Shown: positions 1,109 through 9,056 of the stretch, one piece after another
Position numbering within the stretch: the stretch's first letter is position 1
How the letters are laid out: the number at the start of each line of letters is the position of its first letter
Assembly (NCBI GenBank): GCA_029098045.1
Contig: JAQXNO010000011.1
Location: forward strand, 1-41,230
Direction: 5' to 3'
Origin: Bacillota bacterium
GTDB lineage: Bacteria > Bacillota > Clostridia > Oscillospirales > Oscillospiraceae
DNA length: 41,230 bases
Translations under genes and position numbers: made by a program
Notes under the pieces: generated by a model
Told to the model about the DNA's origin: nothing
Seen by the model: the letters and a program-made list of their open reading frames with translations, nothing else
The model's database searches: none

Positions 1109-1249
1109 ATGGCGAATTACGAAAAGTGTTATTTTGCCGTCCGTCTCCTGCTTCTGATACAGAAACCGAACGGTCACAAAACGGGCTGTCCGGGAGGCCA
1201 GCCCCTACGGGATACTCTGTCTTTCTGCATCTTTCCTCAGAAAACGTAG
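1109..1249 (+). CDS. Possible 46-residue small ORF truncated by REP sequence
   Basis: ATG at 1109 follows GGGAGG with good spacing. It reads MANYEKCYFAVRLLLLIQKP and then runs into the REP palindrome at 1183-1208 (read as GCPGGQPL) before stopping inside the second REP at 1247. The good start signal and the REP-derived tail suggest the 5' end of a small gene interrupted by repeat insertion. Translation is uncertain. Confidence 0.25.
   Translation: MANYEKCYFAVRLLLLIQKPNGHKTGCPGGQPLRDTLSFCIFPQKT
1183..1208 (-). repeat. REP-like palindrome, copy 1
   Basis: Read on the minus strand it starts with GTAGGGG and then has a GGGCTG/CAGCCC stem enclosing GCCTCCCGGA. A GTAG tetranucleotide ahead of an imperfect palindrome is the classic layout of REP sequences mobilised by RAYT transposases. 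Confidence 0.75.
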
Positions 1250-1270
1250 GGGGCGGCCTCCCGGACGCCC
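1246..1270 (+). repeat. REP-like palindrome, copy 2 (inverted)
   Basis: On the plus strand it is GTAG followed by a GGGCG/CGCCC stem around the same GCCTCCCGGA core. It faces copy 1, so 1183-1270 forms a REP pair (BIME-like) just upstream of the RAYT gene. Confidence 0.75.
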
Positions 1271-1315
1271 CGCGATAAACAAGACAAATGCCATACCACC
1301 ACCGGAGGTGACAAT

Positions 1316-1831
1316 ATGCGTCTGCCCCAGCGAAAACAGTCCCGCCTTGGCTGTTTCAATTACAGCGAATCCGGTTCCTATTTTATCACGATCTGCACAG
1401 AAGGTCGCAGAAAGATCCTTTCGGAGATATCCGCAGGAGCAGGCTTCCCGGACAGCCCGGAGGTAACCATTCATCTATTGAACAGTGGAAAAATAACGGA
1501 AAAATGGATACAGGAGATGAACCGCCATTATGACGACATTTCTGTTGACTGTTATGTCATCATGCCCGATCACGTGCATCTGCTTCTGTCCCTGACAGAG
1601 AAAAGCGGGCTGTCCGGGAGGCCAGCCCCTACTGCGGAATCTCGTTGCAATGCCGCTGTTTCCCGGTTTGTAGGGACATTGAAACGATTTACGAACCGGG
1701 AAATTGGTGAATCAATCTGGCAGCGGTCTTTTTATGACCACGTGATCCGAAATCAACAGGATTATGCGCAAATATGGAACTATATCGAAGATAATCCTCG
1801 AAAATGGATTTACGCACACGACCGTCTGTAA
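1316..1831 (+). CDS. REP-associated tyrosine transposase (RAYT, IS200-like Y1 family)
   Basis: A 171-residue single-strand DNA transposase of the HUH/Y1 type. The metal-binding HUH signature is MPDHVHLLL (H86, H88). The C-terminal part, FYDHVIRNQQDY, WNYIEDNPRKW, is typical of RAYTs; the catalytic tyrosine is probably Y156, possibly Y150. CGGAGG lies nine bases ahead of the ATG. RAYTs are thought to move REP palindromes headed by GTAG, and such palindromes lie upstream (1183-1270), downstream (1912-1934) and inside this gene (1607-1632, in frame; a degenerate one at 1442-1458). The frame is intact. No flanking direct repeats were seen, consistent with a domesticated single-copy RAYT rather than an insertion sequence. 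Confidence 0.88.
   Translation: MRLPQRKQSRLGCFNYSESGSYFITICTEGRRKILSEISAGAGFPDSPEVTIHLLNSGKITEKWIQEMNRHYDDISVDCYVIMPDHVHLLLSLTEKSGLSGRPAPTAESRCNAAVSRFVGTLKRFTNREIGESIWQRSFYDHVIRNQQDYAQIWNYIEDNPRKWIYAHDRL
1442..1458 (+). repeat. Degenerate REP core inside the RAYT gene
   Basis: GGCTTCCCGGACAGCCC is the REP core with one change and without the GTAG head. It encodes GFPDSP within the RAYT protein. Confidence 0.45.
1607..1632 (-). repeat. REP-like palindrome, copy 3, inside the RAYT coding sequence
   Basis: All 26 bases match copy 1 (1183-1208), including the GTAG head read on the minus strand. It is translated in frame as GLSGRPAPT, just after the HUH motif of the transposase. Confidence 0.8.
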
Positions 1832-1849
1832 GACTGATCCTCAAAAAAC

Positions 1850-1893
1850 AGGAAGCACATCTTCACTGATTTCTCAGAAAGGATGTGCTTCCT
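1850..1893 (+). terminator. Intrinsic terminator of the RAYT gene
   Basis: A 12-bp perfect stem (AGGAAGCACATC and complement) with a 20-base loop, followed by TTGCTTTTTGCTT, 19 bp after the RAYT stop codon. Confidence 0.75.
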
Positions 1894-1911
1894 TGCTTTT
1901 TGCTTGGATAA

Positions 1912-1934
1912 GGGACGGGAAACCCGTCCCCTAC
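1912..1934 (-). repeat. REP-like palindrome, divergent copy
   Basis: On the minus strand, GTAG followed by a perfect GGGACGGG/CCCGTCCC stem with a 3-base loop. The head and layout are as in the other copies, but the stem sequence differs. Confidence 0.6.
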
Positions 1935-2116: not shown

Positions 2117-3115
2117 TTACTTCTGGGACTCCTCAACAGCAACAGCCACGGAGACGGTCATACCGACCATGGGATTGTTGCCTGCGCCCAGAAAGCCCAT
2201 CATTTCCACGTGGGCGGGGACGGAGGAGGAGCCTGCGAACTGGGCATCGCTGTGCATACGGCCCATGGTGTCGGTCATGCCGTAGGAAGCGGGGCCGGCA
2301 GCCATGTTATCGGGGTGCAGGGTACGGCCGGTGCCGCCGCCGGAAGCTACGGAGAAGTACTTCTTGCCCTGCTCGATGCACTCCTTCTTGTAGGTGCCTG
2401 CAACGGGGTGCTGGAAGCGGGTGGGGTTGGTGGAGTTGCCGGTGATGGAAACGTCAACACCCTCGTGATGCATGATGGCAACACCCTCGCGGACGTCGTC
2501 ACAGCCGTAGCAGTTGACAGCAGCGCGCTCGCCGTCGGAGTAGGGGATCTTCTTGACAATCTTCAGCTCGCCGGTGTAGTAATCAAACTGGGTCTGCACG
2601 TAGGTGAAGCCGTTGATACGGGAGATGATCTGCGCAGCGTCCTTGCCCAGACCGTTCAGGATAACCCGCAGGGGCTCCTTACGAGCCTTGTTGGCGGAGC
2701 GGGCAATGCCGATGGCACCTTCAGCGGCAGCGAAGGACTCGTGACCGGCCAGGAAAGCGAAGCACTTGGTCTCTTCACGCAGCAGCATGGCACCCAGATT
2801 GCCGTGACCCAGGCCGACCTTGCGGTCTTCCGCCACGGAGCCGGGGATGCAGAATGCCTGCAGGCCGATGCCGATGGCCTCAGCAGCGTCGGCAGCCTTG
2901 GTAGCACCCTTCTTCAGAGCGATGGCAGCGCCAACGCAGTATGCCCATGCCACGTCCTCGAACGCGATGGGCTGAATGCCCTTGACGATCTCGTAGGGGT
3001 CGAAGCCCTTTGCGACGCAGATCTCGCGGCACTCTTCAACGGAGTTCAGGCCGTACTGAGCGAGGACACCGTTGATTTTGTCGATTTTTCTTTCGTAACC
3101 TTCAAACAGAGCCAT
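2117..3115 (-). CDS. GGGtGRT family protein
   Basis: A 332-residue soluble protein with the signature GGGTGRT at residues 259-265, which names the family. The fold is not obvious from sequence; it is Gly/Ala-rich with conserved histidines (GLGHGNLG, AGHESF, IMHHEGVDV) and a CYGC pair at 202-205 that could bind metal or a cofactor. No signal peptide or membrane segment was seen. It follows the NifU-like gene by 15 bp with a GAGGAGG ribosome site, so the two are co-transcribed from the promoter at 3912-3940. The pairing is known in Clostridia, but as far as I know the biochemical role is not established; the context suggests a metal- or redox-linked partner of the scaffold protein. Confidence 0.85.
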   Translation of the reverse strand: MALFEGYERKIDKINGVLAQYGLNSVEECREICVAKGFDPYEIVKGIQPIAFEDVAWAYCVGAAIALKKGATKAADAAEAIGIGLQAFCIPGSVAEDRKVGLGHGNLGAMLLREETKCFAFLAGHESFAAAEGAIGIARSANKARKEPLRVILNGLGKDAAQIISRINGFTYVQTQFDYYTGELKIVKKIPYSDGERAAVNCYGCDDVREGVAIMHHEGVDVSITGNSTNPTRFQHPVAGTYKKECIEQGKKYFSVASGGGTGRTLHPDNMAAGPASYGMTDTMGRMHSDAQFAGSSSVPAHVEMMGFLGAGNNPMVGMTVSVAVAVEESQK

Positions 3116-3130
3116 TGCAGCATCCTCCTC

Positions 3131-3823
3131 TTATTCGTGACGGGGGTCGATGTACTTGGCGGCACCTGCGAAACGGCCATAGGAACCCTTAGCCTTCTTC
3201 AGCGCCTCGTTGGCATCGTCGCCCTTCTTGATGAAGTCCATCATCTTGCCCAGATTGATGAACTCGTAACCGATGATCAGGTCGTCCTCGTCCAGAGCGA
3301 CGCGGGTGACGTAACCCTCAGCCATCTCCAGGTAGCGGGGGCCCTTTGCCTTGGTGGCGAACATGGTGCCGACCTGGCTGCGCAGACCCTTGCCCAGATC
3401 CTCCAGAGAAGCGCCGACGGCCAGACCGTCTTCGGAGAATGCGGACTGGGTACGGCCATAGACGATCTGCAGGAACAGTTCGCGCATTGCGGTGTTGATG
3501 GCGTCACAGACAAGGTCCGTGTTCAGAGCTTCCAGAATGGTCTTGCCGATCAGGATCTCGGAAGCCATAGCGGCGGAGTGGGTCATGCCGGAGCAGCCCA
3601 GAGTCTCAACCAGAGCTTCTTCAATGATACCTTCCTTGACGTTCAGGGTCAGCTTGCAGCAACCCTGCTGGGGAGCACACCAGCCGATACCGTGGGTAAA
3701 ACCGCTGATGTCAGAGATCTGCTTGGCCTGAACCCACTTGCCCTCTTCGGGGATGGGAGCGGGACCGTGATAGGCACCCTTGGCCACGGAGCACATATGC
3801 TGTACTTCTGCACTATAAATCAT
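3131..3823 (-). CDS. NifU/IscU-like iron-sulfur cluster scaffold protein
   Basis: A 230-residue protein with a NifU N-domain-like core. Cysteines at 49, 55, 56, 77 (in ETLGCSGMTHSA) and 106 can supply cluster ligands; LGCSGMTHSA resembles the Cys-Ala-ligand region of scaffold proteins. It is longer than IscU (about 130 residues), with a C-terminal extension ending in YIDPRHE. It is first in a two-gene operon with the GGGtGRT gene and is preceded by AGAAAGGAA. No cysteine desulfurase is nearby, so it is probably not the general assembly scaffold but a dedicated version for the GGGtGRT partner. That role is inference. Confidence 0.8.
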   Translation of the reverse strand: MIYSAEVQHMCSVAKGAYHGPAPIPEEGKWVQAKQISDISGFTHGIGWCAPQQGCCKLTLNVKEGIIEEALVETLGCSGMTHSAAMASEILIGKTILEALNTDLVCDAINTAMRELFLQIVYGRTQSAFSEDGLAVGASLEDLGKGLRSQVGTMFATKAKGPRYLEMAEGYVTRVALDEDDLIIGYEFINLGKMMDFIKKGDDANEALKKAKGSYGRFAGAAKYIDPRHE

Positions 3824-8175: not shown

Positions 8176-8928
8176 ATGGAGAAGAGGAAACTGCTCATCG
8201 CGGATGCGTCGGAGGAATTTTGTGATGCGCTGGAGGAATGCCTGAAAGACGGATATTGCGTCCAGGTGTGCCGGGAAGGAAATGAGGCGCTGCGGATGCT
8301 GGAGGCGTTCCGGCCGGACGTGGTGATCCTGGATTTGCTGCTTCCCGGTATGGATGGAGTGACCCTGCTGCAGCGTGCTGCGGAGCGGGGCCTGCAGGCA
8401 CCGGTGCTGGCGACTACACGGTTTTTGAGTGACTTTATGCTCCATGCCATGGAGCGGCTGGGCATTGGCTATGTGATGGTCAAACCCTGTGAGGTTTCCG
8501 CGGTTGCCGCAAGACTTCAGGAGCTGCTGCAAATGCAGACATGGGATGCGGCGCAGCGGGACGTCAGCGCATCGGTGGATACCGCACTGCGGCAGTTGGG
8601 TGTGCAGACCCATCCACGGGGCTATGCCTGCCTGCGTCATGCGCTGATGGAGGCAATCCGGGAACCTGGCCAGCAGGTGACCAAAACACTCTACCCCACT
8701 GTGGGAAAGCTCTGCGGCGGCAATGCAAAGCAGGTTGAACGGGCCATCCGCCTTCTGATCAGGCAGGCATGGCTGTATCGGGACCCGGAGGTCTGGAACG
8801 CACACTTTTCCATGAATCCGGAACAGATACAAAAGTGTCCATCCAACAAACTGTTTATCTGCACCATCGCCAGAAATATTATGGAGAAGCATATGGACAC
8901 CGGCGCGCAATTTCGAAAGGTTGTGTGA
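8176..8928 (+). CDS. spo0A: Sporulation master regulator Spo0A
   Basis: A 250-residue response regulator. The receiver domain (1-120) has phospho-acceptor D53 (VVILDLLLPGMDG), T80 and K103 (VMVKP). The Spo0A C-terminal DNA-binding domain (about 140-245) shows LGVQTHPRGYACLRHAL, TKTLYPTVGKLCGG and the recognition region AKQVERAIRLLIRQAW, very close to the B. subtilis protein; the end, CPSNKLFICTIARNI, also matches. The Mg-binding acidic pair is reduced: IADAS has D10 but Ala where a second Asp is usual. Length is slightly below the usual 265. The ATG follows GGGGTGAT. It is controlled by possible 0A boxes upstream. Confidence 0.92.
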   Translation: MEKRKLLIADASEEFCDALEECLKDGYCVQVCREGNEALRMLEAFRPDVVILDLLLPGMDGVTLLQRAAERGLQAPVLATTRFLSDFMLHAMERLGIGYVMVKPCEVSAVAARLQELLQMQTWDAAQRDVSASVDTALRQLGVQTHPRGYACLRHALMEAIREPGQQVTKTLYPTVGKLCGGNAKQVERAIRLLIRQAWLYRDPEVWNAHFSMNPEQIQKCPSNKLFICTIARNIMEKHMDTGAQFRKVV

Positions 8929-8963
8929 TTTTACAGTAGTATTTTCTCCAAAAATAGGCATAC

Positions 8964-9056
8964 TAGGGAAGCTTTGATGAAACCGGAAAGAGCTGGCGGC
9001 AAAGAATCTGCCATTTCAGCCGAAGACGGTTTGCTCAGAGCTTCCCTATCTTTTTT
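8964..9056 (+). ncRNA. Structured RNA with terminator, between spo0A and the LCP gene
   Basis: A 10-bp outer stem (TAGGGAAGCT with its complement at 9039-9048) encloses a second helix AAACCG/CGGTTT, a purine-rich internal loop (GAAAGA opposite CGAAGA), then GCTG/CAGC and GGCA/TGCC capped by a 7-base loop. TTTTTT follows at 9051-9056. The U run ends six bases before the GGGAGG ribosome site of the LCP gene. It can be the spo0A terminator, or an attenuator/riboswitch-like leader of the LCP gene (a CATACT -10 candidate lies at 8958). It matched no riboswitch consensus I know. Confidence 0.6.

Follow-up and report, generated by a model that had tools for sequence, protein, structure and literature searches.

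RAYT genes of Oscillospiraceae and other Clostridia appear to carry the recognition hairpin of their own enzyme inside the coding sequence, on both strands, a reading to which we give a probability of about 55%. In the window, i.e. the whole stretch of DNA that was analysed (41,230 nucleotides), the RAYT gene holds an inverted pair of in-frame REPs that flank the codons of the HUH motif, copy 1 before and copy 2 after. In relatives of this gene, the REPs keep a fixed position and orientation and the two copies agree with one another; their DNA is more conserved than the protein requires, and changes in their stems are compensated. Such sequence constraint suggests that the in-gene hairpins may be recognised by the encoded enzyme.

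The window gene (1316..1831, plus strand) encodes a Y1 HUH transposase (RAYT or TnpAREP) of 171 aa, and a likely ribosome-binding site, GGAGGTGA (1303..1310, plus strand), is located ahead of the ATG at 1316. The protein scores 25.3 bits against Pfam PF01797 (Y1_Tnp), above the cut-off of 23, and the best PDB fold match of its predicted model (pLDDT 87) is 4er8, the E. coli TnpAREP bound to a REP hairpin. Against the NCBIfam equivalog NF047646 (REP_Tyr_transpos), which is matched by 50 of 50 relatives at E <= 0.001, it reaches 73.8 bits under a cut-off of 80; the gene lies just outside the equivalog and is therefore named a divergent RAYT. The HUH motif is DHVH (residues 85-88; 1568..1579, plus strand), and the probable catalytic tyrosine is Y156 (1781..1783, plus strand) within YIEDNP, which aligns to YIYINP of 4er8. 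H86, H88, Q136, Y156, N160 and P161 are invariant across 50 relatives and W135 is present in the window protein, which, as far as motifs tell, has the HUH, the WQ and the single tyrosine in Y-I-x-x-N-P of TnpAREP/RAYT enzymes. A second Y1 transposase fragment with internal stops (L004) was found in the same genome (G000:C149:2129-2263). Directly 3' of the RAYT gene there is a 27-nt inverted repeat (78%) with a 4-nt gap (1843-1900), probably a terminator.

In its HUH-Y core, its flanking REPs and the in-frame REP of its beta3-alphaC loop, the gene resembles TnpAREP subclass 2.4 (RAYT group 4) as described in the main text of PMC6006769; its WQ and YIxxNP motifs and the apparent lack of a C-terminal tail would fit as well. 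In a comparison at motif level, the subclass shows NH[IFV]H, WQ and YIxNNP, the relatives show NH[IV]H, WQ and YIxxNP, and the window has DHVH and YIEDNP; subclass 2.4 has no C-terminal tail domain, and the window protein ends shortly after the core. The fold, the catalytic motifs and the flanking REPs are also those of the E. coli TnpAREP (REPtron; 4ER8), in which, however, the loop corresponding to the one that carries copy 2 is about 9 residues shorter and the REPs are outside the gene.

Copy 2 (GTAGGGGCTGGCCTCCCGGACAGCCCG, codons 97-106; 1606..1632, minus strand) is identical over 27 nt to an upstream REP (1182..1208, minus strand), within a direct repeat of 31 nt with one mismatch (1178-1208 and 1602-1632). 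The sequence-only reading had reported identical REP copies at these two sites and the second as read in frame after the HUH motif, and both statements are correct: copy 2 reads SGLSGRPAPT, C-terminal to DHVH in the 171-aa ORF. It had further listed a degenerate core at 1442-1458. This is a real repeat, but not a partial one: a full-length 27-nt REP, copy 1 (GCAGGAGCAGGCTTCCCGGACAGCCCG, codons 40-48; 1433..1459, plus strand), lies there inside the gene, inverted relative to copy 2 and with 4 mismatches to it (23 of 27 identical). An inverted upstream copy had been described as well and is present (GTAGGGGGCGGCCTCCCGGACGCCCCG; 1246..1272, plus strand), while the supposed divergent copy downstream (1912..1934, minus strand) is a REP of a different family, GTAGGGGACGGGTTTCCCGTCCC, which forms inverted pairs on another contig of the same genome (C145). 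Further downstream, a 57-nt direct repeat with 84% identity occurs at 1967-2023 and 2117-2173, 150 nt apart; its second copy overlaps the 3' end of the minus-strand gene 2117-3115 and looks like a partial duplication of that end. Two genes lie side by side on the minus strand at 2117-3823; a GGGTGRT motif occurs in the first of them to be named here, and the other looks like that of an iron-sulphur scaffold protein.

When the 26-bp REP proposed by the sequence-only reading was counted in the genome, its 25-nt core was found exactly only at the two window sites, with diverged relatives on contigs C140, C114 and C108, and it is therefore a low-copy family in a 79%-complete MAG. Cognate GTAG-footed REPs flank the gene in the window, and dispersed relatives are few. 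Folded as single-stranded DNA, the in-gene segment 1425-1640 reaches -46.8 kcal/mol, at a z of -6.5 relative to shuffled sequences. The foot of copy 1 has decayed from GTAG to GCAG, while loop 1 of the relatives carries REPs with an intact GTAG foot. In S. maltophilia, GTAG mutants, with a GCAG-type change among those tested, severely reduce cleavage (PMC8266576), and the E. coli REPtron is said in the same paper to tolerate no GTAG mutant. Judged by its foot, copy 1 is probably decaying, and copy 2, which is intact, is probably the only one of the two that still works.

Of 301 genomes from the same family, 92 contain RAYT relatives, and 148 non-redundant RAYT genes with DNA, nearly all from Clostridia and mostly from MAGs, were compared; these loci are related by descent, and independent pairs were used in the 30-pair test only. 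In loop 1, 109 of the 148 genes have a GTRG-footed hairpin on the plus strand and 1 has it on the minus strand; in loop 2, 124 have it on the minus strand and none on the plus strand. Both loops are occupied in 103 genes and neither in 18. Outside the loops, such hairpins are rare (1 in the N-terminal part, 0 in the middle, 3 in the C-terminal part). Loop 1 lies before helix A, and loop 2, which is predicted with low confidence in the window protein (pLDDT about 51), lies between the HUH strand and the next helix; the window and 124 of 148 relatives thus have the variable beta3-alphaC insertion holding a REP that marks subclass 2.4. From the above, the in-gene REPs are locked in position and orientation in about 150 RAYT genes. 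The sequence-only reading had seen one REP tolerated in a loop of the enzyme. The in-frame loop REP stands, but a second, inverted copy sits in another loop, and this arrangement is the rule in relatives. Its suggestion of self-insertion into a permissive loop, if taken as a single recent event, is not supported, given the lock, the DNA conservation beyond coding and two genomes that have no other copy.

The REP pair is not indispensable, since some RAYTs have one or no recognisable in-gene REP. It also speaks against the preferred reading that a matching REP nearby is absent at most loci (35 of 112 have one). Where REP-less and filled loops were compared as empty and occupied sites, no target duplication could be defined at the loop REPs, and REP-less loop 1 segments are mostly close in length to filled ones, which makes decay of a REP likelier than its absence. 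No RAYT relative was found in the viral contigs searched. Plasmid relatives from Bacteroidota and Chloroflexota have a REP in neither loop, and in two Chloroflexota plasmid genes the REPs flank the gene from outside; the paired arrangement is therefore not universal among RAYT-like genes.

In-frame REPs as such are not new. Quentin et al. 2018 (PMC6006769) reported them for subclass 2.4, where they generally lie in the part of the tnpAREP gene between HuH and Y, and the main text judges them to be of little impact on the protein, so the central observation of the sequence-only reading, an in-frame REP in a RAYT gene, was already covered there. Unlike the subclass as that main text describes it, the genes here have a second REP before the HUH motif, an inverted match between the two copies and conservation at nucleotide level. 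The inverted REP of loop 1, the covariation of the loops and the nucleotide constraint were not found described in the main text, and our literature search found no paper on paired in-gene REPs.

The two loops of one gene match each other as DNA. Loop 2 matches the reverse complement of its own loop 1 with a mean of 20.3, against 9.2 (sd 0.36) for permuted partners in 85 genes, and within-gene against between-gene matching gives a z of about 30. This excess over permuted partners holds across about 29 types of in-gene REP; the two protein loops thus covary as DNA reverse complements. The core tree is poorly resolved due to the short core, and 51 parsimony changes among the 29 types are a rough count only. 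In 26 independent pairs of closely related genes with the same REP type, the two REPs differ at 48 and 43 positions, while 182 are expected for each from neighbouring codons; only pairs in which copy 1 has at most 5 differences enter this set, a choice that biases the counts downward, and within it the REP DNA shows roughly one quarter of the expected differences. For all 30 independent pairs, the differences are 77 and 65, with about 222 expected each. At third codon positions within REP 1, 24 of 234 differ (10%), compared with 45% in the neighbouring core.

The loops might instead be ordinary conserved peptide, with the REPs a coincidence of coding sequence, and their constant positions in the fold would fit this. 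However, the loop peptides change with REP type, and the GTAGGGGCGCACAGTGTGCGCCCG type is read in different frames, as VGAHSVRP (V-G-A-H) in L113 and RRGAQCAP (R-R-G-A) in L077. The sequence-only reading had named an ancient segment conserved equally in protein as the sign of such coincidence, and the segment does not behave in this way. This explanation was rejected on the complementarity of loops within a gene, the conservation of synonymous positions and the reading of one REP type in two frames, and we consider it very improbable. The in-gene REP DNA is conserved beyond coding need.

Differences within the hairpins are ordered too. All copies that differ on both sides of a stem pair keep the pairing (23 of 23 compensatory), while random placement of the differences would hit both sides of 3.2 pairs, at most 10, and mismatches between the copies avoid the foot and are concentrated near the hairpin tip. 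With compensated stems and a spared foot, each copy thus behaves like a constrained REP hairpin. Two other causes of matched copies have to be weighed here. Selection could act on RNA, if the copies pair with each other in the transposase mRNA, giving a long-range stem of about 27 bp, and so limit translation or expose the mRNA to RNase. Such a stem appears in the minimum-energy fold of 113 of 113 paired genes, as their complementarity leads one to expect, and other transposases are limited by mRNA structure (PMC8450116). However, mismatches that keep a G-U pair and those that do not number 45 and 30 (p 0.11), which is no clear preference, and the differences between copies leave each local hairpin able to pair, something that a long-range stem would not call for; we regard this explanation as improbable. 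Slightly less probable still is that the inverted copies are kept identical by template switching of the polymerase from one to the other, with no selection involved. This process is documented for inverted repeats, coding DNA included (PMC8604942), and would account for private variants common to both copies, as in genome G078, but it explains neither the long persistence of the copies as REPs with foot and stem, nor the compensatory differences within each hairpin, nor their resemblance to genomic REPs.

In order to relate the in-gene copies to the genomic REP population, we compared gene and genome. RAYT genes occur in 51 of 60 genomes in which one common REP layout has four or more copies, and in 41 of the other 241 (odds ratio 28, Fisher p 4e-23). 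Six genomes (G006, G046, G135, G171, G185, G290) contain 23-116 REP-layout copies and no RAYT match at E 1e-10, being either orphan REP populations or assemblies with missing contigs. In most genomes searched, the in-gene REP type has further genomic copies, and in REP-rich genomes a REP family common to gene and genome is the rule. This would also be expected if the loops merely tolerate REPs and insertion or gene conversion renews the in-gene copies from the genomic population, with no function. For example, the in-gene copies of G004 equal genomic variants. Chakrabartyella piscis, with 93 genomic copies, has in-gene copies equal to genomic variants as well, but of two different subfamilies, which fits refilling from the pool, so exchange with the genome pool does occur. 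Tandem in-frame REP duplications exist in loop 1 of L132 (gene 8475-9005) and loop 2 of L139 (gene 2970-3476), and these too can be read as replacement.

Several observations do not fit replacement from the pool. No copy within 3 mismatches exists besides the in-gene pair in G207 (one contig, 3.2 Mb) or in G156 (97% complete), so these two genomes have no pool to draw on, although a recent loss of the pool could still account for them. The two in-gene copies of G078 (one contig, 4.3 Mb) share GCTCGCC, where nearly all of about 50 others have GCTTGCC; by the codons, this private tip base is synonymous in both loops. At the 35 loci with a matching external REP nearby, the two in-gene copies are closer to one another (0.91 differences in 24 bases) than to the external copies (2.13). 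The in-gene copies thus do not merely sample the genomic pool as it is now. In addition, their orientation is locked though the reverse orientation is readable. We consider functionless replacement unlikely, though the strongest of the alternatives.

We prefer the reading in which the gene carries recognition hairpins of its own enzyme. TnpAREP and REP co-evolve, the GTAG foot is needed and the inverse REP is not bound (PMC8266576). With the loop 1 REP on the plus strand and the loop 2 REP on the minus strand, the GTAG feet would face outward in a REPIN-like arrangement whose spacer encodes the HUH motif. Since published TnpAREPs use the REP strand but not its complement, the inverted pair would give the enzyme one site to act on in either strand of the gene. 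REPINs and BIMEs likewise have two inverted REPs with GTAG feet at the outer ends. Their spacer is short and non-coding, whereas the pair here encloses about 145-160 nt that code for part of the enzyme. A REPIN further moves as one unit; the pair here is REPIN-like in its inverted order and outward feet. Rickettsia palindromic elements are also palindromic repeats in frame inside proteins, but they occur in many unrelated genes (PMC3733652), whereas the pair here lies in the very gene whose enzyme is presumed to act on the repeat.

The likeliest use of the pair may be control of the gene by its own product, which would bind or nick the single-stranded gene, or its transcript; the other would be to provide seed REPs carried along when the gene is transferred. 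The sequence-only reading had suggested that the gene itself could be a substrate or control site, and the gene does look like one. Tentatively, and at somewhat less than even odds, we propose that selection on nucleotides keeps the recognition sites of the product on both strands within the gene, which would then serve as its own control site or as the seed of a repeat family and carry both on transfer.

These results bear on the question of how a RAYT persists as a single-copy gene beside the REPs it seems to mobilise. The RAYT gene probably keeps the putative binding sites of its enzyme within itself, and by keeping a matched REP pair always in the same two places it links the enzyme and its repeat on a single piece of DNA. 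For about 29 enzyme-REP combinations, the gene alone may thus suffice to read the specificity, and the in-gene REPs offer a direct test of autoregulation, as they can be recoded without changing the protein.
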